This document shows positions 152-63,879 of a stretch of 64,000 bases of DNA, piece after piece. The DNA lies in assembly GCF_036370855.1 (NCBI RefSeq), contig NC_088108.1, positions 7,029,448-7,093,447 on the forward strand, in the 5' to 3' direction. The translations under genes and the position numbers were made by a program. Position 1 is the stretch's first letter. Every line of letters starts with the position of its first letter. The notes under the pieces are model-generated. The model saw nothing but the letters and a program-made list of their open reading frames with translations, had not been told where the DNA came from and did no database searches. This DNA is from Dromaius novaehollandiae. Taxonomy: Eukaryota; Chordata; Aves; Casuariiformes; Dromaiidae.

Positions 152-253
152 ACTGAATCAGACACGGCTTCAGAAATCAGCTTCCAGTTTAACAAGCACA
201 AAAAGACGCCTAGCATTGGCAGCCACTCCTCCGACATGGCATCTGTCTCCTCG
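152..253 (+). CDS. SYTL2-like exon A (linker before C2A)
   Basis: Acceptor after a T-rich tract ending tctgagcag at 151; donor gtaggt at 254; 34 codons, phase 0 at both ends. It encodes a Ser/Thr-rich linker, including [12 protein letters not shown], of the kind that precedes C2A in Slp proteins. A stop upstream in this frame supports the chosen acceptor. Confidence 0.75.
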
Positions 254-3200
254 GTAGGTACTTAACGCGTACATCTCGCTGGAAAGGGTTTCTTTTGCCA
301 TCAGATGTGGTGACACTGCATTTAAGCTGATACTGATGATGTAGCCTCTAGAGTATTATGTTGGTTTCTGCACGGTACATTATTAAAAGAATGATGGTGA
401 TTAATTGCTTATTTGTGTTAAAATAGTGTCTCAGGGTACCATCCCAAATTAGATACCCCACTGGACCAACGTTAGACAAATTGAGGGTAAGCAATAGCCC
501 CTGCTCCAAAGTGTGGCCGCTCTGAAGTCTGGCAGTATGCAGGAGAGAGGAATGCCCGTTTTCTGGGTGAGGAAATGAGACACACAGCTATAAAGTGACT
601 TGTTTGTGGTGCAGCTCCAACAGAGCTAGGACTGCAGACTGGTGCCCTCCACAAGCTCATCCTTCCCTTTCTCAGCAAATCAGAAGGAATTCAGAATGAA
701 AGTGTGGACAGCAAAAGTGTGATTTGGAGCTTTGCTTCTAAGGAAAGGTTAAAAGGTAAGTATGTTTAGTTAGGCATTTTGAAGAGATTCCTAAGAGGCA
801 GCATTTTGTGGGGTACTGCTTAAAAGTGCTCGAGTCTGCTGTATTTTTGTTGAAGGCAGCTCTGAAGCATGTATGTGAGGTTTAAAGAATATAAGTGAAG
901 CAAAGCTTGTAGGGAGAGGTCATGAATGCAGATAAACATGTAAAAAACCAACAAGCGAACAATACCCCCGCTAAAAAAACAAACCCCAAAACCAGATGAA
1001 CTTTAGGGCATATGAGTCCTTCTCCATGTCTAGAGAGTCTAGGAGCATTAAATGAGCCTTTTGTGTCCATAGTCACATGTTCTTGAATATCTCACTCTAG
1101 ATTCTCTGTTGGGGTGAGTATCTTAGTGGGATGGTAAATGTAACTGCAAGGACTGAGAGGAGACTTTTTTAGTAGGTTCTTGTAGGTTAAAATAGAATGA
1201 AATTAAGAAACAAAGGAAGTAGGGGAGACAGAGAAGAATTAGGTTAATTACCAGGGAAGTTTTCGGATAAAATGAGCATGACTGTATCACAGAAATGTGC
1301 CAAGAGGGTTAGTTATTTGCTTTGTAAACTGTAAACCTTTTGTGTTATCCCATCAGTAATGGTGAGTGATTGGTGCAATGGAAAATTTTCTCATCGTTCT
1401 GGACCTGTGTATTGTTTCTGCTTCATCACTTTCTACCAGTGAAAGACGTAAACCCTTGAAAAAAGATGCCCAAGGCCTATGGGCACATGCAGTTTGTTCC
1501 GGGAAAGCAGTGACTCTTGGATGCTTAATTCCTGTTTAATACCTGCAGAAACCTCATTTTCCTGTGCATCTGTGGTTAGTAGACACACACAGGCAACAGT
1601 GTCTGGTGGGACACCGGCTCTTCAGGACAAGGACCATATTTATTTCTGTTTTGTACAGCTCTGTGCACACTGTGAGCAAGCAATAGGATAGTAATAGTCA
1701 GCTTTTCATGTATTTCTAGTTGATAAGGTTTTTACTAGCCTAATTTAAAATTTGAATGACAATTAGGAAACTATATCTACCAGAACTAAGAAGCTTGTAT
1801 AAAGATAGTTCAAGTTCTCCCAATATATTTCTTTCTTAATGATGGGACTGGGTCAGGATAGCAGCCATTTGTACTCTAAGTGTGCCAAAGGGAAAGGACT
1901 CATGTAGTCCCCCTGTTATATTTGACTCAGTTGCCTAATGCTTTGGGATTAGAGGTGAAAATCTTGTGTTGGTTGAGCATTCAGGAGAACAGACAGTGCT
2001 CCTTAATCCTTGTCTAGGATAGCACATCCCTGTAAGACCCTTTTTCAGGTCCTGTTCTCATTCTCTTAAATCCTGGTCCCCTAACCCTTGCTCATGTGAG
2101 TGCAGATGCAGACCATTACTGTGTCAAGAGCACAGTACTACTGAAGAACAGAGTATGCAGGCTATTTCTCTGGGAATGCACTTCTCAGACCATCATCTTG
2201 GTCCAGAAACCAAATCAGGAGGCTGCCTATTTCAGTAGCGCTAACCTTGCTTTTCCACCTGGCAGGTGAGTGGCAGCGTGCTCAGCGTGTACAGTGGTGA
2301 TTTTGGGAGTGTGGATGCCCAAGGTACTGTTGAGTTTGCTCTAGACTATGATGAGAAGAACCGGGAGTTCCAGATTCATGTCTCCCAGTGCAAGGACCTA
2401 GCTGTTGTGGATGAGAAGAAAGGCAGATCTGATCCGTGAGTGACACTTCCTTTGGGTGCCTCGTGACTTCTAAACTGCAGAGTTTTGTGTTCTGGAGTCT
2501 TCTTTTTTCTTGTGTTTTTTCTCTGTGAATGTCATGGTTTCCTCCCTCCTCCAGATTTCTGGTGCATGCTTACTGCTGTGACTTTTCCAGCTGATGGTCT
2601 GGAGCCATTGGCATCAGTAAAAATGTTGCTCTAGACTAAAATCTGAATACGACTGAGAAAGCTTTGATCACTACAAAGACAGTTTCTGTTATCACAAGAA
2701 TATGTTCTTTCTACATCCATATGAACCTTGGTCTCCCTGTGGCAAATGCATTTCAGTAATACCTCTGGAGATGTAGACACATGTCCATGCAAAAAGAAAG
2801 CCCTAGAAGTGCCATTAGGTGACACAATGGCAGTTATACAGAGGTTAGTGATCTCCAGTTTGGTGATGAAAAGAAGCTCAAATTTGAACCTTGAAGGAGA
2901 GAGACTTATAATCAGACTCCCTGAGATGTTCCACTGCTTCCCTCCTCTCTTTTTTCACCCTGATTTTGAAGGCACAGAAATGCTGCATTATGAACATTTC
3001 AGAAAATAGATTTATGGCCATATTTAAATCCTTGCTGGCTTTGTAGATTCACTAGAAAGCTGCCTGTTCTGAATGTTGGTGGCATCTATCCATCTCCAGT
3101 GAGATTTATAAGTTCACATGCAAGCCAAGTTAACACCCTGACAGATCTCTTAATTAGTTTTGGCTCCAGAGAGTCAACTCTGGGTCTTTTGTTCCCATAA

Positions 3201-6200
3201 ATTCCATGTCACCATTCAGAAATCTCACTCACTCATTAGAGCGTGGTGATACTGAAGAGTACCCAGCTGGAGTTTGTTTTCTTTTACAGGTATGTCAAAA
3301 CTTACCTGCTCCCAGACAAAGCTAGAATGGGGAAGAGGAAAACCTCGGTGAAGAAGAGAACAGTGAATCCCATTTACAATGAAGTGTTAAGGGTAAGCAC
3401 AAATACATGCTGTGAAAAATTGTGTTGTAGCAGGCACCTGTACCAGGCCAGTTTGGGAAAGAGCCTGCCTTCTCGGCAGAGCTCCTTCCCTTGCCTCCTG
3501 CTAACGCTGGGGGACAACGTTGGGCCTGTGATGCTGGCAGTGGGAGAAAGAGTGTGAACTTCTCATAGGCAGTGAGAAAGAGCCAGGCCTGTGCAGCTCC
3601 CATGTGCCAGCTGGTTGGCGCGTATTTGGTCGGTGCCACAGCTAAATCTCATCCTCCACCTGAGGAAGATAAGGCTTACTGCTTACTGCCGAACACCTTC
3701 ATCGGTATGGGGAGAACCGGAAATAAGTTAAGGGAATTGACAGAGACCGTGCATTTGGCTGTGTAGAAGGTGACATGCGAGTCTTTGTGCTGTTGCGCTA
3801 ACTTGTCTGCTAAACACTGCGTTCAGGCCAGCGAGGGCATCCCCAAATGGCCAGGGACAGCAGGGACTGCTCCCTGGGAAGGAGCTTGAAGCACCATCTC
3901 TGAGGTCTGGGAAGGAGAAGCTGGAATGGAAGAGAACAGATGAAAAATGGATTCGGGCTGTCTCTGGAAATCAGGGACCAGAGAGTGTGACAGACTGCAG
4001 AATCCTAAGGAGAAAGGAGCCAGAGAGAAATGTGACTACTGAATAGCTTCTAAACTACTGAAAAAACAGTAATTCATACTTGCTGGTTTGACTGATGCTT
4101 TCAATCTTTTTGTAAGAACTCAAGGGTGAAAACAAGCAAACCAAATCAGGCAGGAGTTACCTTGCTATGTATTAAAAGCAGGAGACTAGAGGCTGCCCGA
4201 GCTTCTAATAACTGGAGGCTTTCCATAAGCTCCTCTGATAGCAGGAGCTTCAGACAGCAATGTGTCAGGTTGCACTAAAAGGGCAAAAAGAAATTCCCCA
4301 AACCCACCACCCTCAGAACAGTGTCAAAAAGTCCTCTGATCCCACAGCTGTAAGTGTGAAAATATAAGTGCTAAAGGCTCAGAAGCAGAGCAAATAAAAG
4401 AGAATCCCTAAATATATTACTTTAAGTCCCACGTTATGAGTCAGGCTCAGAACTTTTGATACCTGGGCTTCAGGATTTGTTTGCTTTTGTGAATTCTTGA
4501 ATACAGTACAAGGATTGTGTGGGGGTGAAGGGACTTCTGAATGCTCATGTGATTATCTCTGCCATTTATTTCTTCTTACCTTCCCTGGCTTGCAATCATA
4601 AAGCATGGGACTATTAAAACAGATCTTTATTCTGTGATCTTACTCATCAAAGCATAGAGAATTTTTTAACAATGTCCAGACCTGTGTTAATAATTCCTAA
4701 AAGAATAATTGCTTTCGTCCTAAGAAGAAAAGAGCACTAGGTTTCCCTGGGCTCAGCAGAAGAGCTTTATTAGGGTGGTGGTGGTATTGCTATAGCGCAA
4801 AAAAGAGATGTTCAGAGCAGGGCCAGTCCTTAAGAGCATGTGTGGAAGGAGTCTGTGACTCTCAGTCAGTCACAGCTAATTCAAGCTTTTGACTAGTTTA
4901 TTTCCAGTTCTGAAAGCAATTAGTCAACAACTTAATTTTGGAGCTAGAAACACAAGGGTTTGAACAACGTGGCTTCTCTTTCTTTCTCTAGTATAAAATA
5001 GAGAAAATGGTATTGCTGATCCAAAAGTTAAATCTCTCTGTTTGGCACAATGACCCACTGGGACGTAACAGTTTCTTGGGAGAGATCGAAATAGACTTGG
5101 CCAGCTGGGACTGGAGTAACAGGAAACTCAACTGGTACACGCTGAAGCCGCGGGTGAGTGTGTCTCAGCTGCGGTCCTGCTTCCTAGCCCAACCGCAAAG
5201 CCGTGCGGGGTGGCAGAAGCCCTCCCTGGCTGCTTGGGCAGTGCCATTTTAGCTCAGGGCTTGTCCCGCTGAGCCCCCGCTGCCCCTGGCCGAAGGCCCT
5301 GCAGACGGCTGCTTTGCAGTGCACCGTGGCAGTGAATTTCCTGCGTGAAGGGAAGACTCCCCTGAGGTCTTTGGGCAGTGAGGTGGAGCCAAACAGCTTG
5401 AACTGCACCCAGGGGGGTAACCCCCCCCCCCCCGCCCCCAAGTCCTGGACATGCCTAGTACAATATTTGCAGTGCTCTGAACACAGACCTTCTTGGATCT
5501 TATTTTGTGACCGCTCTCTGGGGATAATCAGATTCATAAATGTGATCTGACACTAATCAGCAGAAACGCTGACATGACTCTGCCTCTCTCTTTAGTCACT
5601 CAAAGACTATCCCTTAAAAAACAGACAGCAGAGTACTAGGTGATGCAATTGGATGTGCCTTGAGAGGTAAATATTCAGGTGCCAGTTTTCATAAAGCCTG
5701 TGCAGCTCCTTGCATGCTTCTGGGTTCAGAGGTCTGATCCGAAATCCCTTTTTGGAAAATAAAGGACAACTGGCTTTTGGAAATAAGATGTTTAGTTATC
5801 TGGACACAAGCTGGACACATCTGGAAGGGCAACCTTGCTCTGAATCCTTAGGCTTTTGGTTCTGAGGGAGTAAGGTTGAGAACAAAACCACAAAGTAAAG
5901 AGCTGCCCCTGAGAGTGGGCTGTCTCAGCCATGCAAAATCAGAGCTTGTCTGTTTGTGCCCCTGCAGAGAGCTCAAAAGCTGCTTTCCCTGTGGTGTTAA
6001 CACAAGCCCTTGTTTGGTCAGTCATAACTGTTTCTGTTTCAGAGTCTTTCTGCCATTAATGGTGTGGATCATCGAGGAGTGATGAATTTGTCTATTAAGT
6101 ATGTCCCACCAGGAAGCCTAGGTAAAGTATATTTCATACATTAAGAAGAAGTGTTGCCTGTTCATAGGCATGCAGCTTGCAATGCCTCATCTCTTTAATG

Positions 6201-9200
6201 GCTGGCTAAAGACTGATCTCATTAGAGCAAGACCTTAGAGATCAGCACAGTGGCACAGCCACTGGTGTTTCATAGCACCATCTGCAGACTGTATGTGATT
6301 TGCAAGTCTGGATTTATTGGAAGACTCTAGGGGAAGAAAGGAAGGGCTCAACCTTAAACTCAGCAGCTATTACAATCACCATAGGCAATGCGGTGATGTG
6401 GTGGCAGCAGCATGCAGTCCCTCTAACCATGAGGCAGGCACAAGCTTGAGTTCACTCAGCAGTTCTTCTCCTTTGCTGCTTCAAAGCAGTGCTGGCAAGT
6501 GGTATTGGGAGGCCTCTGCAGCTGCAAGAGTGGAGAACTGGAAGTAACAATATGGGACCCAGGTAGAGGAGTGCAGAGCTCCCCAGGAAGTGAGTAGACA
6601 GAGAGGTCATGTTTCTGCTCCCTCAAATCCCCGGAGGGGAAGCCTGTCTTCTTGCTAGCTATTGTAAGGATTGACGTGAGAGTTTGTCTCTTCTCCTAAA
6701 TGGCAGGTCCCAAGAATCCTCCCTCTGGTGAAGTTCACATTTGGGTCAAAGATGTCAAGGACCTGCTGCAGTTGCGTCCTTCTGGAGTTGACTCCTTTGT
6801 GAAATGGTAAGTGCATGAGCACGATCTCAGCTTTGATGTTGGGTCTGTGTCTCCAGGGAGAGGTCGAACTTACAAAGCAGTATGTTTTCTTCTTTTTTCT
6901 CAGGCTCACTTAACAGTGCTTCCATACTGTAAAGCCTGCATGTTGCCTTCTGTCCTGTAGGGATGAAAAATTGCCCTTGTTATTTGTTTGGGGCCAAACT
7001 GGGAAAATCCTTGCTGTGATAAAGCTCTCAGTCAGCCAATGTCTGTGACTCTCTGATTTTGCCTCAATAATGTCTTACTGGAAGAAATATGAGGGCACTG
7101 TGCCTCAGCCTAGTGTGTTCATGTGAAGTTGTGAATTTTATTGTGATACGGACTTCTGTGCAAAGTTTGGGAATGTGTTAGGGACTCACTAGGACTGACA
7201 TAGGCAGTGCGAGCCAGCTTTGGTCTTCTCCAGCATTCAGTGTGGATGTTTTCTGCAGCCTAGGAGATAAGTTCTGCCTGTTACATGGGAGAAGGTGCTG
7301 CAAATATTCCAGAAAATTAAAAATAATTTAAAAGAATTTCAAGATTTTTTAGATATTTGAAGTGCTTACCATGTTTTCCATATATTTCAAACCCTTATGG
7401 AGTTCTCCTGAATAAAAGTTTGTTGACTAAGAATAAATATTTTGAAATGCATTCTTTGGCACTTAAATGATGAAAAGCTATGAAAACAGAAATATGTGAA
7501 AGTAATATCCATCTTTTTATTTAACATGTCGACCTGCCAAAAGCTTTGCTGGAAGCAGGAAATCTTAAAGTTTGTACCCTCCTTTCTGAAAATACTTGCT
7601 TAAAAACTGGATTTTCTTTGCAAAAAAGAATTTGGTCCAGGAATTATGAACATTTCACATTAAATCTACAGAGGCTTCTTATGTGTTGAGACCCAGTTCC
7701 TCCTTATTTCACAACTGAGACATGTTTAGACCCATGTTTAGAATTTTGTAGGAACAATTCAAACCTCAGTGACATTCTGTACTACATGCTGTATTTTTTT
7801 CTCCTCTCAAAGCTATGTGCTTCCAGACACCAGTAAGAAGAGCCACCAGAAGACCCGAGTTATAAAAAGAGACACAAACCCTGTTTTCAATCACACTATT
7901 GTGTATGATGGATTTCACACAGAGGATCTAAAGGATGCTTGTGTTGAATTGACTGTGTGGGATCATGAAAAGCTAACCAACCATTTCCTTGGAGGAATCA
8001 GGCTGGGCCTTGGGACAGGTAAGCAATTTTCTTTATATTTAAATGAGCACTGTTACCATATTGCTGAGCCACATGGTATAATGGTAAGTTGCAGAGCATC
8101 TGCAATGCATGGGGAGTCTCAATAATTGGTGTGGGTCTTGCTACTTTTACCATGCATGTTGGTCTGGAATGGAGCAGACCCCAGTACTGTGATGGCAACC
8201 CCCTGTTCCAGCGATTTCTGCCAACTCTCAGGTTTGGCAAAACTCAAGAACTCAAGCCTTGGGTCAAGTAGATGATGGCAGGGAGCTTTACTGCTGTTAT
8301 CCTTCCCAAAGAGGCAGTGTTACTCATTACTATAGTGCTGCTTCTCTGAGTGAAGAGTGTTCACAGAGGAAGATGAAAATAAAGAACTTTAATGCCATGT
8401 GGGACAGCACCACCTGGTGACTCCGTTCATGTCACCTCCTCCCTTAAAATGCTTTAATAGCAGGAATAACTACTATTTGAAAAACAGGGCTAGATACACT
8501 ATTTGCTCTAGTAGGGAGTCAGCACTGAGACTACGATGACTGTAACTAAAGCACAAATTGGAAAAAATGTATACTTTTTTGGTTTAGATGATATAGTGCT
8601 GAAAGACCTCAGCTGAGGTGCCCTTTGCTTCACTGGAAGAGAGTCTCTGTCTCCAGGAGTTTATGGCATGAGGTTCCAGTTCAGAGAAGGACTTAGACTT
8701 ATGCTTAGTTTGAAGGGTTTTACTTTAGTGACATTACTTGCTTTTGAAGATAGGAAAATGCCCAATGTTTATAAACCTCAGTTGTAAAGACCAGATTGGA
8801 CCATCTCTCATTGTCCAGCTGTCAGTCACGGAGGTCTGTCCCTTTCTAAATGTCCTGTCATGGCTTTCAGTGTACCCCATACCAAGGCTTTGACAGATTG
8901 CATGTTCAACTTTGTATTTTTGTAAGTGGGATGTCTAAAGAATTCTAAACTGAGTGTATTTATTATTAAGCAAGAGGGCTCTCTGAGGAATGAAAGACAA
9001 ACAAAAGATTTCAGGGGGTTGTGAAAAAGAATAACTTGAGGGTATTTGTGAAAGGCCTGTAGTAGCTGGAAGGTCTGCCATGCAGGTGCACTTAGGTTTA
9101 TTGGATTTGCTTTTATGTTCTCTGTTTTCAGTCTCTAGCATGTCACCGGGAGTGTTGTGAGCTATCCAGTGTGAAGTGGCAACAGGAATAAGCTTATGAA

Positions 9201-9888
9201 CAAGATATAAAAATACCAGCCCCAAGATTAGCTATGAATCAAATTTAGACCTTTATCTAGTTGACAAGTAGTAGGCACATGAAAATTTGGTTGAATAATC
9301 AACTTGGAATTAAATGTACACACTTTTACAATAGCATATGTTTGATTCCTAAATAAATGAAATGTAGAGGAAGAGAATTTTGGCAGATAACCCTCCCTGT
9401 CCACAAGATCTCTTAAGGGGAAAAGCAAGCTTTTTAGACCCTCTTTACCACTCTGAAAGAAGCAAGGAAGAGCTTGAGCCCAATATTATTTTCCCTGGCA
9501 GATTATGTTTAAAGTTCTTGTGATTTGGGGCTTCTACATTGACTTCATTTTGAACTCTGGTGTAAAGTGGAGGTCCTTAGCAGAAGAACAAGAGGTGGTT
9601 AGGGTGCACCTTGCTGAGCGGCACTCAGCACCTTTTAGGCTAAGGCCCTACCTGCAGCAGTCACATCCCATTGAGTATTTCTGTATGGAGTAAAAATTCC
9701 GTGTGCTGCTCCCAACGTTACTGTCTCCTTATTCTTCCTAAGGTTTGAGCTATGGCATCTCCGTGGACTGGATGGACTCCACGCAAGAGGAGGTGGCCTT
9801 TTGGCAGGAGATGATGTCAGCTGCCAACGAATGGATCGACGGATTGCTGCCGCTGCGCTCGTTGGCAGGCAGAAAAAAACTGAAATAA
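152..9888 (+). CDS. Synaptotagmin-like protein, SYTL2-like (C-terminal tandem C2 half; 5'-partial)
   Basis: Eight coding exons join in frame (1068 nt, 355 codons plus stop) at 152-253, 2266-2435, 3290-3392, 4992-5153, 6043-6121, 6707-6806, 7813-8018 and 9743-9888. The product is a linker followed by C2A (fragment residues about 50-175) and C2B (about 200-330) of a Slp/exophilin protein. These proteins bind Rab27 through an N-terminal domain, here outside the window, and plasma-membrane lipids through the C2 domains to dock secretory vesicles. Diagnostic pieces are [59 protein letters not shown] and the tail [11 protein letters not shown] basic stretch in C2A ([14 protein letters not shown]) fits phosphoinositide binding. 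Acidic calcium ligands are incomplete in loop 3 of both domains. From memory the match is best to SYTL2, weaker to SYTL4, SYTL5 and SYTL1; true SYTL2 is expected elsewhere, so this is called a paralogue. Confidence 0.9.
2266..2435 (+). CDS. SYTL2-like exon B (start of C2A)
   Basis: Acceptor ggcag ending 2265, donor gtgagt at 2436. It encodes [14 protein letters not shown] and the first C2A strands through KGRSDP; loop 1 keeps two acidic residues (VVD and SDP). Confidence 0.92.
3290..3392 (+). CDS. SYTL2-like exon C (C2A basic region)
   Basis: Acceptor ttttacag ending 3289, donor gtaagc at 3393. It encodes [17 protein letters not shown] through NPIYNEVLR, the lysine-rich strand that binds acidic lipids in this family. 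Confidence 0.95.
4992..5153 (+). CDS. SYTL2-like exon D (end of C2A)
   Basis: Acceptor tctctag ending 4991, donor gtgagt at 5154; 54 codons. It encodes [20 protein letters not shown]. Loop 3 reads [10 protein letters not shown], so two of the three acidic positions seen in calcium-binding synaptotagmins are absent. Confidence 0.95.
6043..6121 (+). CDS. SYTL2-like exon E (inter-C2 linker)
   Basis: Acceptor tgtttcag ending 6042, donor gtaaag at 6122. It encodes the short linker and the first C2B strand ([16 protein letters not shown]). Confidence 0.92.
6707..6806 (+). CDS. SYTL2-like exon F (C2B start)
   Basis: Acceptor atggcag ending 6706, donor gtaagt at 6807. It encodes [19 protein letters not shown] and GVDSFVK; only the second loop 1 aspartate is kept. 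Confidence 0.93.
7813..8018 (+). CDS. SYTL2-like exon G (C2B core)
   Basis: Acceptor ctctcaaag ending 7812, donor gtaagc at 8019. It encodes [29 protein letters not shown] and [19 protein letters not shown]. Confidence 0.95.
9743..9888 (+). CDS. SYTL2-like last coding exon
   Basis: Acceptor ttcctaag ending 9742; TAA stop at 9886-9888. It encodes the conserved Slp tail [20 protein letters not shown] and a basic C-terminus AGRKKLK. Confidence 0.95.
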
Positions 9889-19814: not shown

Positions 19815-24373
<4,559 letters not shown>

Positions 24374-29549: not shown

Positions 29550-29564
29550 TTTACAGGTATATTG

Positions 29565-30638: not shown

Positions 30639-30709
30639 CTATGCTTTATTTTTGGAAGGGTCTTCCTTGTTTCTTCTCTTTACATCCCAATTATAAACTC
30701 TAGCCATAT
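30639..30709 (-). CDS. VBP1: VBP1 exon 6
   Basis: Acceptor TATCTTCAG; encodes MARVYNWDVKRRNKEDPSKN and ends with TAG at 30639-30641. Confidence 0.95.
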
Positions 30710-33700
30710 CTGAAGATACAGAATTAAGGAAACAGCTCATGTATTAAGGGAAAACAAAATAGAAAAAAAAAAAAAAGAAAAAGCAGGTTATGTACTTGGC
30801 TGAACATAATTCATTTCACTTACTTGGGACAGTCAATATAGAAACCAGTTAATGAAAGAGCTGTCTTGGTGCAAAACCTTCATACCAGAACACTAGTATC
30901 TGTTAATACCTGTAGCATCTATACCATTTATTTAACACTCTAAAACGGTATTACAAAGAAAAGCATTTTTAGTTTTACTTACAGCTACTCTCTTCTGACT
31001 TCAGTCAACCTGCCTCATATCAGTCACATTTGCCTATTTCAGGCATTCATCCTGCATCACTAGATATCTTAAATATCAACATTAGAACCCAGTAATTGTG
31101 CCTTCATGTACTGAATTATCTAATGCCTCTGTTGCAGGCTGTCCTAATCACTAGGTTTAAAAAAAGAAAGAAAAAAAAGAAAAAACTCAAATCCAGGAGA
31201 GGGTTCATGATACTATGATGAAGTTGGAAAAGTTAAGCAACGCGTTAGCTAGCACCAAGTTGCTACAGCAGTGCTTGTATTGCTTGGAGAACATTGCAAG
31301 AGCAGTTGACTCGGGCACTACTACCAACAGCCCAAACAACAGGATTTATACGCTCTCTAGAGGCCACAGCACCAGTCCACACCTTCAAGTCATTCCCAGT
31401 CCAGGTTTGCAGCCATTTCTGTAGTTTTCACAGGGACCCAATTACTGGCACGAGCTTCGCTGTATCAAACCCACCCATCCTCACCCCGGCACTGGAAATG
31501 CCACATCCTGTTTCACTGCTAAAAAGTTCCTGAAGTGCTACAGAATTTTAACTACAGCTAGTTTAAGATAAAAACATGTCTGGAAATTAATAAATACCTA
31601 TAGGTTACCCACCACATATACTACCTCCCCTGCAAATTAAAAAAAAAAAAAAAACAAAGAAAAAAGGATACTGACTTCTGTAGTGGTAAACTGGTCTCTA
31701 AGAAAATCCAGGTCTTCCTCTAGAGAATCAAGGTTTCTTGTGGCTGTTGACAAGTTCTTCTCTAACAGAGCCTGAGCTTCATCAATATCATATTCAAGCA
31801 TCACATTGGCCTAAAAAAAAAAAAAAGAAAGAAATATTTTTAAGCTTAAAAAAAGCTTTCACTCTTGCATTACAAGCAATAAGCCATAGCATAAACAGGC
31901 TGAAATACTCATAACTCATCACGTTAACAGAAGCGTGCCCTGTTACGCCAGGACTACAAGATTCAGGAAGAGCAAAGCCAGAATTCACTTGAGGCCTCCA
32001 TCACTTAAGTAACTGAGAGACAAAACCCTCTAGTGACATGAAAAAAAAGTTCTCTCCTCATTGCTAAGCAACAAGGGATTTCACTCTCCGTAGACTGCAC
32101 TTTTACGTGTCAGCATCTCATCTTCATTCTTTTTGAAAAGCAAAAAAGTTCCTAACATTTCTTAGCAGCATCAAGTGTTAAGTAATTTTTAAAACAATTT
32201 CTGCCACATTCAAGTTTAACCTTAGAATTTCCCTATGCGGGAGGCTGGCAAACTGCCTAATGGCATTAGTTCAAGAAGGTGTTAATAAAAAATTATCACA
32301 GGTATTCAAAAACATAAGATGTACAAGAGCCCTATCCCATTCCATAGTGGCTTTTATCTACAAATCTTCATTTCTGTAAGGAGCTATCACGTGAAGAGAT
32401 AAACAAGCAGTACCAAGTCAAGATGCACCAGTGAAGCTCTGTCCTATTCAAGGACTGTGTACTGAACAGAGCCACGTACTATTATTACTTAACTGGATAC
32501 CATTCCAGGCAATGCTATACAAAGGTGGAAGTGTGGTAAGCGTTTTTTCCCCCCCCCCATTTTAGATAACTGGAAGCTATAGTTTCCCCAATAAAGTGAA
32601 TACACGTAGTCCAACTCACAGACAGACTATAAGCCACAAGGAGGAAAAAGGGCAGAAGGCCAAAGAATGCCTAAATATTATAAACTGCTCGTGCTACTTC
32701 TGTATGAACCAGCAGGAGGATAAACTTTCTCCAACATGCTGTGGCAAATCAAACTTGCAGTGCTCCAGGAAAGTCACTTTGTAAATTCTGCAGCCAGTCT
32801 CTTGACAGCAACAAGGGATCAGACAGAAATCTTTACTTTACTTATGACAGGACAAAAAGTAGGAGAGTTTGGGAGCAACTGCCTAATCAGACAGCATCCT
32901 ACAGCTGCATTTATCAACAATGCTTTTGTCTTAGCCAGAGTTTTGTTTGGCAGCCAATCACATGGGAACATCAGGGATTTAGAAGTCTCAAAATAAACAT
33001 TGGTGAGTTATCTCTACAGATAAGGAAGCCTCCAAATAGAGACTATCCCAACCTGATACCACTTAAGTACTTAGAAATCTGTGTTTTAAGCTCTGATCCC
33101 ACCAATCTTTACTAAAGAACTCTACTCTACACACTGGTAAGAGAGAAAGGAAAAAAAAAACCATGCTGCGAGGAAGAAAAACCATCGTTTCCCCAAACTT
33201 ACGTGAAAAGGAGAGCAAGATGCTAAATAGAAATAACAGATAGAGAAAACAGGAAGCTAGTTGCCAAAGTAATTTGTTGTGTTGGACACATACCAATCCC
33301 AAGGAATGGTGGATGGTAATTTGAACCACAATGTGATAAGGAAAATATTTATGAATGTGTTTTTTGGAAAAAAAAATCCAGTAAAGTTACAATTCTCTAA
33401 AACTCTTAGGATTATGTTATATACAGACACCAAATAACATAGTAGATGAAACCTCTACTAACATGTTGAAATTGTCTTGTTCAATTTGCTCCACCGACAG
33501 GATGCAGTTCTACTACGCACACAGGAACAGAATTATACAATGTCTTTGAGGTGTACAGATGAGACAGCAATGAAAACGGTCTTTTGTGCCCATAAGTTAT
33601 TAAAAACAGTTTCAGAAAGAGCTACATTTTACTTACCCCCAACCACAAACAAACTTTATCTGTAGGAGGAACTGAAGCTTTGCAGTACAGATTATCTGCC

Positions 33701-36700
33701 AATAAAAATCTGGTTTCCATTGGATTTGTGGATTCCTAAAGACAAAAGATAAAACTTAAAATTACTATTTTCACTGGAAACTTACGTCAGAGACATAAAA
33801 ATTACAGTAAAGAGCACACTTCTCTGCTTGATATTATATTAACTTCTGTGGAACTATACATAATTTTACTTCAACATTCAAATTAGAGTCCAAACACTAA
33901 AGCATTTTAAAAATACATATTTAAAAACAATATAGAAGTTCTATAAAGAGTCTATAAAGTCCAAGTTTAGCTGCAATCTATACACTATTAAAAATGAAGT
34001 TTCCATTACAAACATTAACTTTTTTTTTTGAACTAGCTTTCAAAAAGTACTACATACCTTTAAAACAATTCTGTTATTTTTAAAGGCATATTAAGTGTGC
34101 TCTCCAAAACATTTCTTGCAATGTGTTCTGTTAGGGTGGAAAGGCAGTTAGCTTTACTCATACTCACTAGATATTCAAAATAGTTTACCTTTTTCTTCTG
34201 CATGTGTTTTAAAATTTCTAATGTCTGTTTAATTTCAGGAATCTGACTTTTTAGCCTGTGAATTAACAACAGTCATAATTTATTATTTTACACAGACACA
34301 AAATTTTCTAAACAAGTGATCAGCTTTATTATATAATCCAACCACCATTTTAAAACTTGACATTCTAACAGCTTTTCAGACTTAAAAATGAAAATTTGAA
34401 AGATACGGCATGTAAAAACATCTCTTCTACAGCCTCACCTGCCTCATATCATACTGAAACTCAACAGTTTTCTGTCTTCAACAAAGCAGCAGAGCAATAC
34501 ATACAGCTTTCAAAGTGTAACAAATATTTATTAACAATAACTTATATCTGCTTGCTATAATGGCATATTTTTGCATATTTCTGATGTCAACAGAGGAGTG
34601 GGAAACCTCAGAAGAAATACAGACAAAAATCATGGTAGATGGAATAAAACAAGCGTGTTTCTTCGGAGGACCACAAACTGCATTAACAACAGTTTAGTGC
34701 TACAGGAATTAGTGGTATTAAAACAAGAACTCTCTCCAGAGCCCAGGGCATGGGCCTCCGGCAAGCCTTGCAGCAGATTAGCGGAGATGCTCGGATCCCC
34801 ACCAGCCTTGCAGGCATCCAGTCCTCTATAATCAATCAGGCTCACACAGCAGTAGCCTCTTAAGCAGGCCACCAGCTATAAATTATGTGGGGTTCTTCCC
34901 CATGCAAAGTAGTTTAATCTCAAATAAAAATGTTACTCAAAGCTTTGATTTTAGGTTTACAAAATTGTATTTCTTACCTAGCTTCAGAACAAGACTGAAG
35001 CTATTGAGGAGAGATGAAATTACTATGCCAAAAGTTATAGGCTTGATATAAGAGCCATTTGTCAAATTATAGTCTTAATTTTTTTCAACCCAATGTAAAT
35101 AAGAGAATAACAGTCTTTTGGCATTAAAGGCTAAGGACCAATTTAGCAATACTGTAAACTTTTGCATATAATCCTCAGGAAGAAAAAAAAAAACAACACA
35201 AAAGTGAAGCCAAGGCTTTCTGAAAGTACTGCAAGTATTAGGTCTTCTAACATTACTTTTTTGGATATTTAAATAAGCTAGACCATATTTTAAAAATAGA
35301 ACAGTGCTAAATATTTCCTAATCCTGCAAAAATAACAACTTACCTCCTTTTCTTCTGAGCAAGATTAAGTTCCATAAATTTATACTTCTGATACTGCTCA
35401 TCCAACTTCTTAAGAACTACATCTGCTGTCTCATTTCCAGGCTGTTTCATAAAGGAATCTACATCTTCCTTTATGGGGAGAAAAAAAGACCTCAAAGTTA
35501 GAACAGTTTTAGAAATTCCAGATATAGTCATGTTATCATCTTACTGCAACTAAGCCCAGAGATTTTACATGCAAGTAAACATTATTTTTCTGGCATAAAG
35601 TACTAAATCATTTTGTTTCTTTTCTTAGTTAGCCTTTTTTTTGTTTTTGTTAAGAGAGAGAGAGAACCAAATAATAGACACAAGGAATATTTCATAACCA
35701 TACTTGCTAGTGCTAATTAGTGGTGGTTTCAGCCCTGGGCAATGTTAAATGGTATCTAACAAGGGATATCCTCAGACCAAGTCCAAAGTTCAGTTTCCTA
35801 TCTGCAAAGGAAGGATAATGCTTCTTTTTGGTTAATCAGATTATGAGCTATTTACGATATGACTAATGAAATAAAAGAATCGTGGCCTGATCAAGCATAT
35901 GCTATGGCAGAGAAAGAGAGAGGTAAAGGCAAGAAAAAGTGATATTTGCCCAGGTTAGCTTTATGCTCATAAAGCTTGTCTCCGTAAGTTCCTTTGACAG
36001 TCCGCAGAGAGCAACCAAAACTTGTAAAGAACAATTCAAGTCAGTCCTACCATCAACTGGAACCGTAGTCAACGAGGATGGGCCTGACCAGGCGCGAAAA
36101 CTGACTTTTGTAAATGCCTTCAGATTCGCAGAACGCAATTCATCTGCCTAGGGTCAATATTCTCCGTCTAGTTAGACATGTCTGGCTAGGGATCAGTCGC
36201 GAGTTTCTGGCCTTGACAACATTTACCGCTATCGTAATTCAAGATTACTGCACTAGTCTGCTGCAGTAATTCTTCCGTTGGTTGTCCAGACAAATTCTCT
36301 CGCCTGCTGAACATCTCTGAACTCCTAAGAATTAAGCCTAAAAAGATGCTTTGAATTTAGATGCCATAGTTCTGTAAAATCTGATAAAAGCCAATCACAG
36401 GCCTTTTTGGTTTATCCCCTTATACCTACGTGTTTCCATTCCAGTACTTTTACATAAGGAAAAGACTATATTACATTAGTAAAATAAATAAATGCATTTA
36501 AACTTATAGCTGTTTTCCCTTATTATTTATAACTCATAAACTCCCTTGGCTAAGAGAAACTTACTATGAAATCCCCCAGTCTCGTAGGAAGTCACCCACC
36601 TTCCTTATCAATTAACCAAACCTGAAGTAGAAACGTGAACTGCACAACAGACATCAGCAGGCATCACGGTCCAAGCGGTACGACAGCAAGAGAGAACTCC

Positions 36701-39700
36701 TAAGATTATATATATATTATATTTCAGATTAACTGCCTAAGGAAAGCCTCAAACTACCTCACCAAGAACAAAACAAGAAACAGTTCTGCCTCCTGATGGA
36801 GCCTGTCGTGAAGCTTTAACTGGAAAAATGAAGGTTAGATTCAGGCAAGCACTGTAAAAGCAAAGTCACAGGATGTTCCGAAATGAAACTCCCTCTTGTG
36901 GAAGCTATTCTGCCTACATAAACCCCCCAAGGCAGAAAGCAAGAGCAGTAGGTAACCCGGTGGGCAACAACGCACTCCGCACGCAGCCCAGCACCCTATC
37001 TCCACTCCAGTCTGTGCAGAATGCACCCAAAAAGCGAGGGTGAGTCCCCGCAAATGAAGGTGCAGGCAGACAGATCTTGCCAAAGAAAAGGTTCAGATCC
37101 CTTCTGGACAGGAGCGACTCCAGGTCCTCTGTATCCTGGCGACCCTCTCCTAACCCCCAGCCCAAGGGAGGCTCCCGTTTATCACTCAGGTCTCCCAACC
37201 ACAGCTGCCAAGCCCCACTCACCGGACCTGCGGCCCAACTGCAAGGCTGAGATGCAGCCACTCCCCTGAGCTAGAGCAGAGCAGATCTGTAACACAGCTG
37301 GGTATCACTGCTACCACCACATCTTGTCCGGATCTCTGCTTCACAGCATGTCACGGAGCATCTCAGCTGCAAAATCACATTGTGGGTACTGCTAGGACCT
37401 GCCAAAACGCATCTTTCTATCTTTTTAGGAAGAAAATTCACTGGCAAAACAGCATTCTCGGATACTGCAGAGGTAATACAGACTTTACAAACGTCAAGCA
37501 AAGCCACATAAAATCTCTGTAAAAGCTGTGAAATACCGTATGACAGCACATACCCACGCAGCCTTACGTATGCCTTTGGGGTGACGGCCCAAACAAGGAG
37601 CCAGAGGCACACGTGCTGCTTCTGCAGAGAGCTGTCATCACCTGCGGGCATATGCAGGGAGCATGGCACAAAGAAACACTTTTCCAGCTGTGCATCTCCT
37701 GTCCTCCAAGCCATAGGTATGCTACGGAAGGCAGAACAAGCAAGGCATTTTCTCTGGAAACATCTGGACCACAGCTCAAAAGAAAATAGACCTGGAAGTT
37801 GTATTTAGTGTGTTCTTTAAAATCCAGCGAGACTGAGTTAGCGTTTAACGTCACCTGAAACCCAGAGGGGCACAAGAACCCACAGGACAGCTTTAGCTTT
37901 ATCAAAGTCTACGACAAGGCATCCGCCATAAACTCTTTGAAGAGCATCTGCTGAATCAAGATACTTCAAAAAAGCATCGTTAAAGACAAAACTCACAGTA
38001 AGAACATGCATACAGCATGTGGTGGTGGGAAATCAAATTAGTAATCAGTAATTTTTTATGAGCACAATGACATACAATTTTCTTAAACATTTTGTATTCC
38101 TAAAAAAAAAATTCTGAAGAAAAAAACTAGTAAAAAATCCATCCTCAGACACTAATATCTTCACTTTCTAGAGCAGAGTATCATTAAAAATTTCTTAGCA
38201 TAAGCTTATTTTGAATAAAAAAAGTCTATCTTAACATCTACAACCACCTAAAACCAGCATACTGTCACCAGGTACTCTAAAACCAGCATAAAATATCTCT
38301 TCTGCAGGTGTATTTGATTAGAACATCTCTCAAATCAAGAAATAATAATTAAGAAGCTTCCACAGGTTTTAAATCCAGACACGAGGTTAGGAAGAATTAA
38401 AACAGACGCAGAGAGCTAAGCTGCCGCCCCCAGCGCTCTCTCAGGCCGCATGGCACCACCTGCGAGAAACTTCAGACAGAAGTGTCAAAAGGAAGAACTT
38501 GCAACCAAGCACGGTCGCCACCAGCAGCCACCAGCAGGAAGATGCCGGGTCTGACAGATGCCCTCCGAGCGGCTGCTGCGACCGCTTAGGTTTCCGTCTC
38601 CTGCGCCCTGCCAGGGCGAGCCCCTCCGCTGCAGAGCGGGCACAAGCCACCAGCGCTCCTCCGGCAGGAGGCCCAGGCTCTCGCAGGGCAGCTGAAGCTG
38701 CAGGCGGCCTTCCCTCTCTGGCGGTGCTACACGAGCCTCCCGTAACAGAGCGAGAAGTTAGCTGCAGGCAGCAACGGCTTTACGTCTCAGTAAGATTTCC
38801 CAAACCTCATCCTTCAAGTAGCTAATATTTGCTAAAGAATCTTAAAGAAATACAAGGATCTGGATGCATTGAAAACACGCGTAACATACCCCTTTGTTCA
38901 CGATCGAGACCTATGCTTGCTGAGTAATAACACGATGCAAGTCACAGCAGCTGGCTCTCTGTAAGAGCTGCCAAACCTGATCAGTCCAGACAGTTCAGGT
39001 AGAGATATCAAGAAAGATCTGACAAAGATAGATTTTCAAAGCCTAAGAAAATCTCAGTAATAAAGAAGCAAAATGAACAAAGCATTCAGGGCAGGCACCA
39101 GACATCAGGAGATGAAACCCATGGGAGCCAGGTACCTCAGTGCGCACGAGATGTGCCCGCGTGCCCTGCAGCATCTAACACGTAAAGCCCTTTTTCTTTA
39201 AACTGGCCCCCACACATCAAGAAAAGAGAAAAAGGTTAAGCTACGGTATTTAATGCAGCATTCATGCTGTCAGACATCCCAATGAGGATCCTTACTTATT
39301 GATCAACCTAAATAAAGTAGCAACCAAGACAGCATGCAAAGAGTTAGCTTGCAGCAGAGAACGATTAAAAAATGATTTTGGTGTTATGTCAGTGCACGAA
39401 TTGATGAATTCTTCTTTTTCAACCATCAATAGAATTTATAAGTGCTGCTTAAATCACCTTTTAAAGCTGATAACCAAATCTAGTCTCTTTCCAGAAAACA
39501 AAAACCTACCATGTTCATTAGTTTTAGGGAAATCAGGGAAAGCTAGCTGGGCACCACGGTCACTTCTGGAAAGTGATCCTGCCCGTGTATCAAGAAGTAC
39601 GTTAGGAAAAGAAGAGACAAGGAAAAGCAGTAAGAGGGTAAGGTTTCACACTCCGAGAAACCGAGGAAGCAACTCCATCCTCTCCAGAGGAGAAATGACT

Positions 39701-40358
39701 ACAAGGAACCATGATTTCATTTGTACAGCAGAAGGGCTCATTTGTAACGTGCTTATAAATAGCCAGCCAATAAAATAAGATGATAAAATTTAAGACGGGG
39801 ACTTGAGTTCGCTGTAAAATTACGCGGTTTTAACAGAATTAGGAGAGAGGCCAGACGAAGCAGAGCCCCCAGGAGGAGCCCTCCGGACGAGGCACAGAGC
39901 GGCTGACAGCGACCAGCGCCGCGGCTCCCGCAGGAACAGGCCACCCCGCACCAGCCCAGGCGGCTCCGGCGGCCCCCCGCGCCGCGCCGACCCCGCCGCG
40001 CCGCCCCGGGTCCCGCAGCCTCCGCCCGCTGCTCGGGAAGGCAGCGCTCGGCCTCCCGCGGAGCGACTCTCGGGCCCCCGCGGGTCCCACCCGCAGGGCC
40101 CCCCGCGGGTCCCACGGCGCTGTAGCCAGGCGCTCCGGCCGCCACAACGGCCGCGCCGCGCCGCGCCAGGCCCGGCCCGCCGCCCGGCCCCGCCGTAGGT
40201 GCCGCCTGTCGGGGCCGGTCCCGGTCCCGGCTGCCCGAGGCCCCGCGCCTGGAGCGGCGGCTCACCACGAAGACGGCCTCGGGGATGCCCAGGGGGCCCC
40301 GCTTCCCGCCCGCCGCCGCCTCGCCGCACCCCGTCTCGCTGCCGCTGGCCGCCGCCAT
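30639..40358 (-). CDS. VBP1: Prefoldin subunit 3 (VHL-binding protein 1)
   Basis: Six exons on the minus strand (40358-40266, 35468-35344, 34255-34189, 33735-33637, 31810-31672, 30709-30639) join to 594 nt, 197 codons plus stop, the human length. The product is an alpha-class subunit of the hexameric prefoldin chaperone, which hands nascent actin and tubulin to the TRiC/CCT chaperonin in the cytosol; it also binds VHL. Conserved blocks include LGIPEAVFV, DSFMKQPGNETAD, QIPEIKQTLEIL, NLYCKASVPPTDKVCLWLG, NVMLEYDIDEAQALLEKNL and VYNWDVKRRN. The two heptad-rich helices flank the central beta-hairpin region. The Ala/Gly-rich first 22 residues differ most from human. It is convergent with RAB39B and transcribed in the same direction as the PICALM-like gene upstream of it. 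Confidence 0.97.
31672..31810 (-). CDS. VBP1: VBP1 exon 5
   Basis: Encodes ANVMLEYDIDEAQALLEKNL through DQFTTTEV, the second coiled-coil helix. Donor GTATCC is a weaker GT site; its phase matches exon 6 exactly. Confidence 0.95.
33637..33735 (-). CDS. VBP1: VBP1 exon 4
   Basis: 99 nt, 33 codons, phase 0; encodes ESTNPMETRFLLADNLYCKA and SVPPTDKVCLWLG, the beta-hairpin region. Donor GTAAGT. Confidence 0.96.
34189..34255 (-). CDS. VBP1: VBP1 exon 3
   Basis: 67 nt; acceptor TTCACAG; encodes LKSQIPEIKQTLEILKHMQ and ends KKK before GTAAAC. Confidence 0.95.
35344..35468 (-). CDS. VBP1: VBP1 exon 2
   Basis: Encodes EDVDSFMKQPGNETAD through LNLAQKKR, the first coiled-coil helix. Donor GTAAGT. Confidence 0.96.
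40266..40358 (-). CDS. VBP1: VBP1 exon 1
   Basis: ATG at 40358-40356 within a CpG island; 31 codons ending EAVFV; donor GTGAGC immediately follows (plus-strand 40260-40265). Confidence 0.95.
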
Positions 40359-61200: not shown

Positions 61201-63879
61201 CTGGCTAGAAATTTTTTGTAAATATCCAAGCCTTCTTTGCACTGGTTCTTCTTCATATCAAAATATTTTTCTGAGGAGGCAAAGGAAAAAAAAGAAAAAC
61301 ACTCTTGTAAGTTAACACTCTCCCTGGCAAAAAGCTGGCATGGAATTATAAATGTTAATTTGAGACAAGCTTCAGGGAGAGAAGAGACAGTAATAACTCA
61401 TTAAAGCTATCTGAGTTTCAAAATGGACATGAATATCTGACACCTTTTGTAATAAAATCAGTCAAAAGAAAAATATTTCTTTTCTTGCTTCAGTATACTA
61501 AAATACAATGCAAAGCTTTATTAAGCACAGATGTGAATCACTTCAACTGTTTAATTAGATATTTAGGGGAATATTTTTAAGAAATTTTATTAGCAGGCAA
61601 TGAGGCAAATTATTTTATTGTTGGAAAATATTCCTGGTATATATTTACATTTTTAGACCCATATCATTATGCTTTGGACACAATATCCAAAAGACATCAG
61701 AATAACAACTGAAGTGGTACACAAACTGAACTGACCTGAAGGATGCGGGTGCCATTCCTTTTGACACTCGTTATGGTTTTGCTCTATATACTTGTAGATA
61801 TTTCACCAAGTCAAAATTAATAGACACGGAAATAAACAGATCAGAAGACATTTTAATTCAGAAATTTGCTTGAATAGTCTTCATTACAAATCTTTGCCAA
61901 GAGCTTACCAAGCTCGAGGGGGCATATATAACAAGATAAAAAAAACAATATAAATAAAGTATGGGAAAACAGAAGTCAGTCATGCTGTGACCACACGAAA
62001 CATACAAAAATAAGTAATGTTCCTGTCTACAATGGGCCAGTGAACATCAGAATTTAAGGAAACCAAACCAGGTGCCTCACTAATACTTTTACAGTCCAAT
62101 TGCCAAAGGGTATCCACTGCAAATTCATGGTACTTTTGTTTTGTTCTCAGTCACTCTCTTGTCTCAGTTTCTATTTCAGAATGGTTCACATCACCCCACA
62201 CGGTCAAAATAAAAAAGTATGCTTAAGCTATGCTCGTTGCCACTGAGACTAATAAGGGCTTAATCTAATGGTAATGAATTTGAGACAATGTACCAGGGAA
62301 TTACAGTCAAACTGCCTACATTTTTTAATTCTCTCAACAGCTTCAACCAAAGTTCAAAAACTAAAAAAAATTCTCACATACCTAAAAGATTAATAATCCC
62401 CTCATTGTATGCTGCAAAAAGTCTAATGGAATCTTTAAAGAGGAGCATAAAGGCAGCATTTATAACACCGTTTGTTAGTTCATTTGGATTTGCCTGTGTA
62501 GAAAAGCAATGAGAAAGTAAATTAGTATTAAATAAAATAACCAAGATCTTGCTTCAAAATAAGAGTGTTACCTAACAATGAGCTTAATGTACTTACATCA
62601 AAATCAAGGAGTGCATCAAGCTGATTCTGTATGATTGGAAGGGTTTTCACAAGCTTTTCAGCATTCATGGTTCTCATCACTCCATCTATCCTACAGAGCA
62701 GGAAACAGGTTTACTGTTTACCAAGAAACTTCAGCACATTATGTTGTTTCAGCAATATTACATTATCTGCAGGGTCACAATCAATACCAACACATGACAA
62801 GCTTAAGGACAACTGGTATTTTCTCCCCATATGAAAAACCCCAATGAAAGAAGCAGCAATAGTCTTACCCTCTTTTCATTTTGGTGAAGTCTACTGCTAC
62901 AAGTCTATATGAAAGTGCTTTTTCATTCAAGTATCTGCTATACCGCCTGATGAAGGTAGACATATCATAGCCTAAAAAATTAAGTGCTTATAAGGTTAGA
63001 CATTTTGAAGATGTACACTTTTAAAGCTTTTTCCGGTACTATTCTCTTATTTGTCCATTTCACATTAATCTGCATAAAAAGAGCACTTCACAGGCACATT
63101 CCAGAATCTTGAGCTTCACGGTTTTCACTCTGAGATGCAGTGTTACAGCTATATTCTTCCCAACTTGCTAAGACTAAGAAAGTATTCATGACAGTTGTAA
63201 GAGAAACTGCTTACAGCATATAAAATATTAGGCAATTACCAAGCAGCTCTTGCTATGTGTTCTAGAAATCACACTGGAAATATATTCCTGATAAAATGCT
63301 AAAGACTTCACTAACATAACTGCAATGCCCCAAAAACCACATAAAGACCTAAAAATAATTTCCACCACTGGCAAGTAATTGGAAGCCCTCTCAGAGACTT
63401 GAATGAGTTCTCTTTATCTATACAGCACATTCAGTTACCATGCCATGCACCTCAACAACTCATATTTACTCCTGAAACACTGAAATGCAATGGCAAAAAT
63501 AGATCAGTGTGCTAATATTCATCAGATTTATTCTAGGCACCTTAAGAGCTCACTTTTTTAATTTATAGCTCTGTAAGTGCACAATATATGTATTACAGGC
63601 AAGTTTCCAGCACTCAGCTGGGTAACTCAGCACCTCACTTTCCTTGTCTCTTGCATTTACTAACATTTCCAGTGCCTCATACAATATAAATTGTAATACC
63701 CTTTTCATATGACAGTAATTTGTCTCTTAGCATGAAGTGACGCAGGTGCTAACACTGAGCAAAAAAAGCAGTAGAGTTGTTTCCTTCAGCGAAACATCCT
63801 TACCCTGCATGGCACTTTTGTCCAGGTAGTTATTAAGATTGAACAATGTGTTTCGGGATGCAAGATACTGGATAAAGCG
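46236..63879 (-). CDS. PICALM-like clathrin-assembly (AP180/CALM family) protein, 5'-partial
   Basis: Twenty exons join in frame (1776 nt, 591 codons plus stop). Fragment residues 1 to about 180 are the C-terminal two thirds of an ANTH domain ([87 protein letters not shown]), which binds PI(4,5)P2 and SNARE cargo. The rest is a low-complexity adaptor tail with DLF/DIF motifs at about 283-285, 301-303 and 345-347, [18 protein letters not shown], an NPF EH-binding motif at 578-580, and the PICALM ending GTQIQFM. It should act at clathrin-coated pits. The ANTH and extreme C-terminus match PICALM; the middle ([23 protein letters not shown]) is unlike human PICALM and partly recalls SNAP91. It is therefore a diverged paralogue. 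The missing N-terminus (about 95 residues) is beyond 64000. Confidence 0.92.
46927..47034 (-). CDS. PICALM-like exon (NPF motif)
   Basis: Acceptor CCTTCTAG, donor GTGAAC; encodes [20 protein letters not shown] and [13 protein letters not shown]. Confidence 0.93.
47224..47267 (+). repeat. Diverged 44-nt repeat, copy 2
   Basis: Partner of 45713-45756, in the intron before the NPF-motif exon of the PICALM-like gene. Confidence 0.7.
47415..47471 (-). CDS. PICALM-like 57-nt exon
   Basis: Acceptor GATTGAAG, donor GTAAGG; 19 codons [19 protein letters not shown]. Confidence 0.88.
47589..47612 (-). CDS. PICALM-like 24-nt microexon (NGVHYPGY)
   Basis: Acceptor CTGCCAG, donor GTAAGT, phase 0 at both ends. 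It matches the optional NGMHFPQY-type microexon of PICALM, so it is probably alternatively spliced. Confidence 0.88.
49597..49717 (-). CDS. PICALM-like exon ([11 protein letters not shown])
   Basis: Acceptor CATTTTAG, donor GTAATT; encodes [20 protein letters not shown] and ends PPIPHM. Confidence 0.93.
50235..50265 (-). CDS. PICALM-like 31-nt exon
   Basis: Acceptor CCCCCTAG, donor GTAAGT; encodes [10 protein letters not shown], matching the NLGIGNGTTK segment of PICALM. Confidence 0.88.
50318..50342 (+). repeat. T14-G11 homopolymer pair
   Basis: Fourteen T directly followed by eleven G, inside the short intron at 50266-50419. On the gene strand it is a C11-A14 block. Confidence 0.9.
50420..50536 (-). 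CDS. PICALM-like exon ([11 protein letters not shown])
   Basis: Acceptor TTCTTCTAG, donor GTAAGT; encodes [20 protein letters not shown] and [13 protein letters not shown]. Confidence 0.94.
51430..51540 (-). CDS. PICALM-like exon ([14 protein letters not shown])
   Basis: Acceptor GTTTAG, donor GTAAAA; encodes [20 protein letters not shown], corresponding to the VDFESVFGNKST block of PICALM. Confidence 0.88.
51629..51688 (-). CDS. PICALM-like 60-nt exon
   Basis: Acceptor CATGAAG, donor GTAATT; encodes [19 protein letters not shown]. Phases fit both neighbours; similarity to known family members is weak. Confidence 0.7.
52124..52270 (-). CDS. PICALM-like exon (LDIFDMKP block)
   Basis: Acceptor ATCTGAAAG, donor GTAAAA; encodes [20 protein letters not shown] and [14 protein letters not shown]. 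The DIF-MKP order recalls SNAP91 rather than PICALM. Confidence 0.82.
53191..53294 (-). CDS. PICALM-like exon (second DLF motif)
   Basis: Acceptor CTCTTCAG, donor GTAAGC; encodes [20 protein letters not shown] and ends at SAWG. Confidence 0.92.
53613..53749 (-). CDS. PICALM-like exon (first DLF motif)
   Basis: Acceptor CCTTTCAG, donor GTGAGA; encodes [20 protein letters not shown] and [14 protein letters not shown]. Confidence 0.92.
54564..54687 (-). CDS. PICALM-like exon (coiled [12 protein letters not shown])
   Basis: Acceptor ACTTTTAG, donor GTACTA; encodes [19 protein letters not shown] and an acidic/basic helix [18 protein letters not shown]. Confidence 0.93.
55751..55836 (-). CDS. PICALM-like exon ([13 protein letters not shown])
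   Basis: Acceptor AACTTTAG, donor GTGAGC; encodes [20 protein letters not shown]. Confidence 0.95.
55837..60518 (-). other. Large intron of the PICALM-like gene
   Basis: About 4.7 kb between the ANTH-closing exon and the APSSLL exon. It holds a CR1-like remnant near 57375-57475, a GT-rich microsatellite near 56105-56126 and a possible alternative terminal exon at 59369-59422. Confidence 0.85.
57375..57475 (+). mobile_element. Degenerate CR1-like LINE fragment
   Basis: The run from ggaacactaagtacaattct to gcaaagaaaggcaattagaa follows, with many changes, the 'ggagcactgtgtccagttctgg ... gagtccagcgaagggccac' region of CR1 retrotransposons as I remember it. It is old and truncated. Confidence 0.45.
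60519..60560 (-). CDS. PICALM-like 42-nt exon ([13 protein letters not shown])
   Basis: Acceptor AAACTCAG, donor GTCAGT; 14 codons, phase 0 at both ends. It closes the ANTH domain. Confidence 0.93.
61164..61270 (-). CDS. PICALM-like exon ([16 protein letters not shown])
   Basis: Acceptor CTCCTCAG, donor GTAAAT; encodes [20 protein letters not shown] and LSEFLKVAE. Confidence 0.96.
62382..62493 (-). CDS. PICALM-like exon ([16 protein letters not shown])
   Basis: Acceptor TACACAG, donor GTATGT; encodes [20 protein letters not shown] and [11 protein letters not shown]. Confidence 0.96.
62597..62690 (-). CDS. PICALM-like exon ([16 protein letters not shown])
   Basis: Acceptor CTCTGTAG, donor GTAAGT; encodes [20 protein letters not shown] and [11 protein letters not shown]. 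Confidence 0.95.
62869..62971 (-). CDS. PICALM-like exon ([14 protein letters not shown])
   Basis: Acceptor TTTTTAG, donor GTAAGA; encodes [18 protein letters not shown] and VDFTKMKR. Confidence 0.95.
63804..63879 (-). CDS. PICALM-like exon ([14 protein letters not shown])
   Basis: Acceptor CCAACAG, donor GTAAGG. Encodes [20 protein letters not shown] and KSAMQ. It is the most 5' exon inside the window. Confidence 0.95.

Follow-up and report, generated by a model that had tools for sequence, protein, structure and literature searches.

The locus described here raises the question of whether the genes that flank RAB39B and VBP1 in Dromaius novaehollandiae are simply SYTL2 and PICALM or additional, ancient relatives of them. 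It occupies a stretch of 64,000 nucleotides (the window; C11:7029448-7093447, where C11 is one of the 271 contigs of an assembly of 1,468,444,375 bases), and the gene order is SYTL2-type (+), RAB39B (+), VBP1 (-), and PICALM-type (-). SYTL2 is a Rab27 effector, and PICALM is a much-studied endocytic adaptor; the two window relatives are called SYTL2L and PICALML below. The first-pass annotation of this stretch placed all four genes within 64 kb and read them as a block duplicated in early vertebrates. All four genes are present close to where it had put them, and the duplicated-block reading is largely supported by separate SYTL2 and PICALM genes on C1, by an SYTL branching that precedes the bird-human split, and by shared synteny. 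We assign a probability of about 0.87 to the reading that the window block and a RAB39A-SYTL2-PICALM-GAB-like stretch of C1 descend from one ancestral segment through the early-vertebrate whole-genome duplications, and that SYTL2L and PICALML are retained ohnologs.

Separate SYTL2 and PICALM genes lie on C1

We searched the genome with the window proteins. With the ANTH domain and the part following it as the query, 19 matches were found in three places: the window, C1:212.24 Mb, and C3:38.90 Mb. With exon 1 not found, the joined ANTH exons of the C1 gene match human PICALM at 99.6% identity over 245 residues, and those of the C3 gene match human SNAP91 at 99.3% over 289 residues, which identifies these genes as PICALM and SNAP91 and brings the PICALM/SNAP91-type genes found in this genome to three. 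The C2A-C2B protein gave at least 60 matches, and six places are SYTL-type by C2 likeness: C11:7.03 (the window), C1:212.10, C23:7.16, C11:20.36, C1:126.3, and C3:67.7 Mb. The remaining matches are mostly weaker, resemble synaptotagmin-type C2 genes, and were not assigned singly. Exon reading identifies C1:212.10 as SYTL2 and C11:20.36 as SYTL4 (like PDB 3fdw); we take C23:7.16 to be SYTL1, C1:126.3 to be SYTL5, and C3:67.7 to be SYTL3. The second SYTL2 and second PICALM that the duplication proposal called for are therefore present; they adjoin on C1, SYTL2 at 212.10 Mb and PICALM at 212.24 Mb. Scans of viral_contigs with PICALML and SYTL2L found no relative.

The presence of the C1 genes also bears on the simplest alternative, that the window genes are the SYTL2 and PICALM orthologs, merely relocated. 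Their overall likeness (66% to C1 SYTL2 and 88.6% to PICALM) would fit such a move, but separate and much closer orthologs of both exist on C1, so this alternative is already refuted and retains practically no probability.

Four families are shared between the C11 block and C1

The closest separate paralog of the window RAB39B, taken as RAB39A, is found at C1:201.44 Mb and is 86% identical in exon 1 and 77% in exon 2. The naming of the two relies on human sequences, by which the window gene is RAB39B and not RAB39A. RAB39A on C1 (201.4 Mb) and RAB39B on C11 is the arrangement that the duplicated-block reading predicts. Past PICALML exon 1 lies a GAB-like neighbour (C11:7.13), which at a threshold of E 0.01 matches just one other place in the genome, C1:214.70 Mb (43% identity, E 5e-6); the GAB-like motif and the GAB3/GAB2 names are presumptive.

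The best paralogs of four families that lie within about 125 kb on C11 thus all fall in a 13.3-Mb stretch of C1, less than 1% of the genome, and the C11 block and C1:201.4-214.7 Mb carry paralogs in paralogous blocks, as is characteristic of ohnologs. The chance of four random places falling in one such span is about 3 in a million (4 x (13.25/1468)^3), a rough figure since genes are not randomly placed and the GAB family is a post hoc observation. In addition, C23 has RAB42-like frames (6.71 Mb) 0.45 Mb from its SYTL1-type gene (7.16 Mb), and on C3 SNAP91 and the SYTL3-type gene lie 29 Mb apart. Repeated copying of one block by whole-genome duplication would leave an arrangement of this kind over C1, C11, C23, and C3.

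SYTL2L branches outside the bird and human SYTL2 pair

The trees hold sequences from this genome and from human, to which the PICALM tree adds Drosophila. The SYTL tree has eight rows (267/270 columns), among them a SYTL3 row with a long branch that lacks two of the five segments. C1 SYTL2 and human SYTL2 form a pair with support of 100/99, the window gene is their sister (96/95), and SYTL1 comes next (99/99). Constraint tests reject a grouping of the window gene with C1 SYTL2 (p-AU = 0.00044), and grouping it with SYTL1 or with the SYTL4 pair gives p = 0.020 and p = 0.00008, respectively. The window gene does not branch inside bird plus human SYTL2, where a SYTL2 ortholog would be found, in agreement with the first-pass annotation, whose reading a place inside the SYTL2 group would have refuted. 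The results support an SYTL duplication older than the bird-human split.

The PICALM tree has six rows with LAP as the outgroup and was calculated on ANTH alone (289/301 columns) and with the linker (418/432 columns). With the linker, C1 PICALM and human PICALM group at 90/94 and the window gene joins PICALM at 77/83, and grouping the window gene with the C1 gene is rejected weakly (p = 0.038). Plain identities are clearer than the tree: C1 and human PICALM share 122/129 linker residues, versus 65/124 for the window and C1 genes. The existence of a separate C1 PICALM, 99.6% identical to human in ANTH, rules out the window gene as the direct PICALM ortholog.

Alternative origins of the block

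Several observations weigh against descent from one segment copied with the whole genome. SYTL2 and PICALM are on one strand on C1, with the nearest exons found about 125 kb apart, but face each other in the window. C1 RAB39A is about 10.6 Mb from C1 SYTL2, and BRCC3, which is reported for the VBP1-RAB39B interval in human, is at C11:24090233-24095736, 17 Mb from VBP1. The human SYTL2 row of the SYTL tree is not letter-perfect. On ANTH alone, the C1 and human PICALM pair has support of 79/86, and none of three groupings is rejected: the window gene with C1 PICALM (p = 0.061), the window gene with SNAP91 (p = 0.138), and PICALM with SNAP91 to the exclusion of the window gene (p = 0.129). The proposal that the window gene lies outside the PICALM group is weakly supported by its position outside the C1-human pair and by the test with the linker, but not by the test on ANTH alone. 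Finally, with human as the one other vertebrate in the trees, the duplication node is datable only as older than the bird-human split.

The ANTH-only result leaves room for a later event, in which the C1 SYTL2-PICALM stretch was copied onto C11 in the reptile-bird line and then diverged fast; SYTL2 and PICALM adjoin on C1 and could have travelled together in a single copied segment. However, the SYTL test rejects such an origin, the PICALM test with the linker rejects it weakly, and it leaves the RAB39A/B pair, the GAB-like pair, and the SYTL1-type and RAB42-like genes on C23 unexplained. We regard it as very unlikely. The loosely dated node would also suit a segmental duplication that predates the bird-mammal split and yet belongs to neither of the two genome duplications. 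SYTL1/2-type and RAB39-type genes, however, share three contigs (C1, C11, and C23), and the C1 partners span 13 Mb, a spread that fits copied chromosomes better than a local event. This origin seems to us just as improbable as the later one.

Descent through whole-genome duplication is the reading that we favour. The segment would most simply have been copied in the early-vertebrate whole-genome duplications (2R), the date that we infer for the duplication, which would leave RAB39B and VBP1 flanked by a Rab27 effector (the second of SYTL2 type) and a clathrin adaptor (the third of PICALM/AP180 type).

The human interval and the proposed loss of the two genes

In human, SYTL1-5, PICALM, and SNAP91 are the only known members of these families. 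SYTL2L and PICALML would be missing on the mammalian side through loss. The first-pass annotation described human Xq28 as carrying RAB39B and VBP1 without SYTL or PICALM relatives beside them, and the gene list of the int22h1-int22h2 interval agrees: it is reported to contain FUNDC2, CMC4, MTCP1, BRCC3, VBP1, RAB39B, CLIC2, and part of F8, and the words SYTL and PICALM are absent from the main text of the source (PMC4422130). The same list minus CMC4 is given in a second source (PMC9987063). The window lies on what seems to be the sauropsid counterpart of the old part of the mammalian X.

Among the matches listed in a search of open-licence PMC text, no title or abstract concerned a third PICALM or a second SYTL2; both may well be annotated in genome databases. 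Ohnologs that survive in one lineage and are lacking in another are a familiar phenomenon, which the finding illustrates well. A more specific possibility, that vertebrates formerly had a third PICALM/AP180 and a second SYTL2 which sauropsids retain, that co-regulation of a Rab27 effector and a clathrin adaptor within one block has kept these genes adjacent in two duplicated blocks, and that mammals lost the entire X-side pair, appears unlikely to us. Should the copies persist in birds or reptiles and not in mammals, functional studies that extrapolate from chicken to mouse or the reverse would have to reckon with an additional copy, and gene loss could be tested for in the human X interval around VBP1 and RAB39B.

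Gene models and other features

Exons were located by tblastn with human proteins (SYTL, VBP1, and PICALM types), and RAB39B was located from its reading frames (Table 1). The exon-chain fits demanded AG/GT borders; canonical splice sites are a condition of the fit and not a result, so the fit shows only that a stop-free chain of such exons exists. Such chains comprise 11 exons for the PICALM-type gene (2 outside the window), 7 for the C2 part of SYTL2L, 6 for VBP1 (stop codon at ~30639), and 2 for RAB39B. Five further C-terminal PICALM-type matches, the exon at 152-253, and the SHD exons are unfitted. Position 152, where the first-pass annotation had the block begin, is in frame directly after AG, and positions 143-256 are 53.7% identical to human SYTL2; the end point of the block, 63879, coincides with the opening base of a PICALM-type exon. 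Pfam scores are 3.1e-41 for C2 (two stretches), 1.5e-59 for Ras, 4.4e-36 for Prefoldin, and 8.6e-78 for ANTH.

Table 1. Positions of the genes in the window and of neighbouring exons on C11
Feature	Position	Strand	Basis
SYTL2-like SHD exons (Rab27-binding N-terminus), outside window	C11:7013996-7014097, C11:7016472-7016630		flanking DNA
SYTL2-like exon preceding C2A (translation ...ASVSS)	152..253	+	translation, borders by eye
SYTL2-like C2A exon 1	2266..2435	+	AG/GT fit
SYTL2-like C2A exon 2	3290..3392	+	AG/GT fit
SYTL2-like C2A exon 3	4992..5153	+	AG/GT fit
SYTL2-like exon opening C2B	6043..6121	+	AG/GT fit
SYTL2-like C2B exon	6707..6806	+	AG/GT fit
SYTL2-like C2B exon	7813..8018	+	AG/GT fit
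SYTL2-like last coding exon, stop codon 9886-9888	9743..9888	+	AG/GT fit
RAB39B coding exon 1	20061..20275	+	AG/GT fit
RAB39B coding exon 2	23947..24373	+	AG/GT fit
VBP1 (prefoldin subunit 3), six coding exons	30639..40358	-	AG/GT fit, Pfam Prefoldin
VBP1 exons	40358-40266, 35468-35344, 34255-34189, 33735-33637, 31810-31672, 30709-30639	-	
PICALM-like gene, exon 3 to C-terminal part	63879 down to ~46924 (last C-terminal match)	-	fit, Pfam ANTH
PICALM-like fitted exons	63879-63804, 62971-62869, 62690-62597, 62493-62382, 61270-61164, 60560-60519, 55836-55751, 54687-54564, 53749-53613	-	
PICALM-like matches without fitted borders	51544-51455, 50540-50418, 49719-49609, 47468-47436, 47034-46924	-	
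PICALM-like exons 1-2, outside window	from C11:7104529; from ~C11:7096698 downwards	-	flanking DNA
GAB-like exons, past PICALML exon 1, outside window	C11:7132642-7132902, C11:7137772-7137903	-	

The C-terminal matches of PICALML reach ~46924, and its last exon was not found. Between 51400 and 53700 (-) lie extra PICALM-like linker frames, putative exons, one of which contains a 13-residue stretch reminiscent of SNAP91-type linkers. A Vma12 Pfam match below the cut-off in a plus-strand open reading frame (46845-47135) was rejected as the antisense of a C-terminal PICALM-like exon. Elsewhere in the genome, three RAB39/RAB42-like frames stand in a row at C23:6711514-6713518, perhaps as a tandem pair, 0.45 Mb from the SYTL1-type gene. 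Two C2-type matches on large contigs, C33:65414956-65415309 and C35:79207636-79207989, have the same score, length, and open frame; they may represent scarcely diverged Z and W copies, which would point to a palaeognath bird.

Comparison with SYTL2, PICALM, and SNAP91

SYTL2L has the layout of the SYTL (Slp) family, SHD exons in the flank plus two C2 stretches; their order and strand suggest that a single transcript contains both the SHD and the C2 exons. Like SYTL2 (Slp2-a), it has tandem C2A-C2B domains, 66% identical to C1 SYTL2 over the joined C2 exons, and an SHD that matches Synaptotagmin-like protein 2 best among PDB entries (3bc1; 2.7e-12, with 7 sequences matched at E 0.1) and scores above the Pfam cut-off as FYVE_2. 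The SHD reads TGEWFSE where Slp2-a reads SGQWFYE, and the 3bc1 alignment covers this stretch. Unlike SYTL2, it lies at a separate locus (C11, not C1), branches outside the bird and human genes, and has another 11-residue C-terminus where SYTL2 reads LRMLMVAKLTK. In alignment to synaptotagmin-1, the five C2A positions that we take to be calcium ligands are D, D, H, D, and S, the same pattern as in the SYTL2 of this genome. Because D is kept at only 3/5 of these positions in a pattern common to SYTL2, the C2A domain of SYTL2L likely binds membrane independently of calcium. Judging by its family, SYTL2L would use its SHD to dock vesicles that carry Rab27 and its C2 domains to bind acidic membrane.

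In PICALML, as is typical of the PICALM/AP180 family, an N-terminal ANTH domain precedes a long linker that carries adaptor motifs. Like PICALM (CALM), it has a high-scoring ANTH domain (8.6e-78) with a KKKH basic patch, keeps an 11-residue PICALM stretch, and carries NPF near the C-terminus. As in its relatives, the ANTH domain would be expected to bind phosphatidylinositol 4,5-bisphosphate (PI(4,5)P2), and the protein would recruit clathrin. Unlike PICALM, whose C1 and human forms are 99.6% identical in ANTH and share 122/129 linker residues, PICALML is 88.6% identical to C1 PICALM in ANTH and shares 65/124 linker residues with it. Its ANTH domain is also 80.3% identical to that of SNAP91 (AP180), but SNAP91 is a separate gene on C3.

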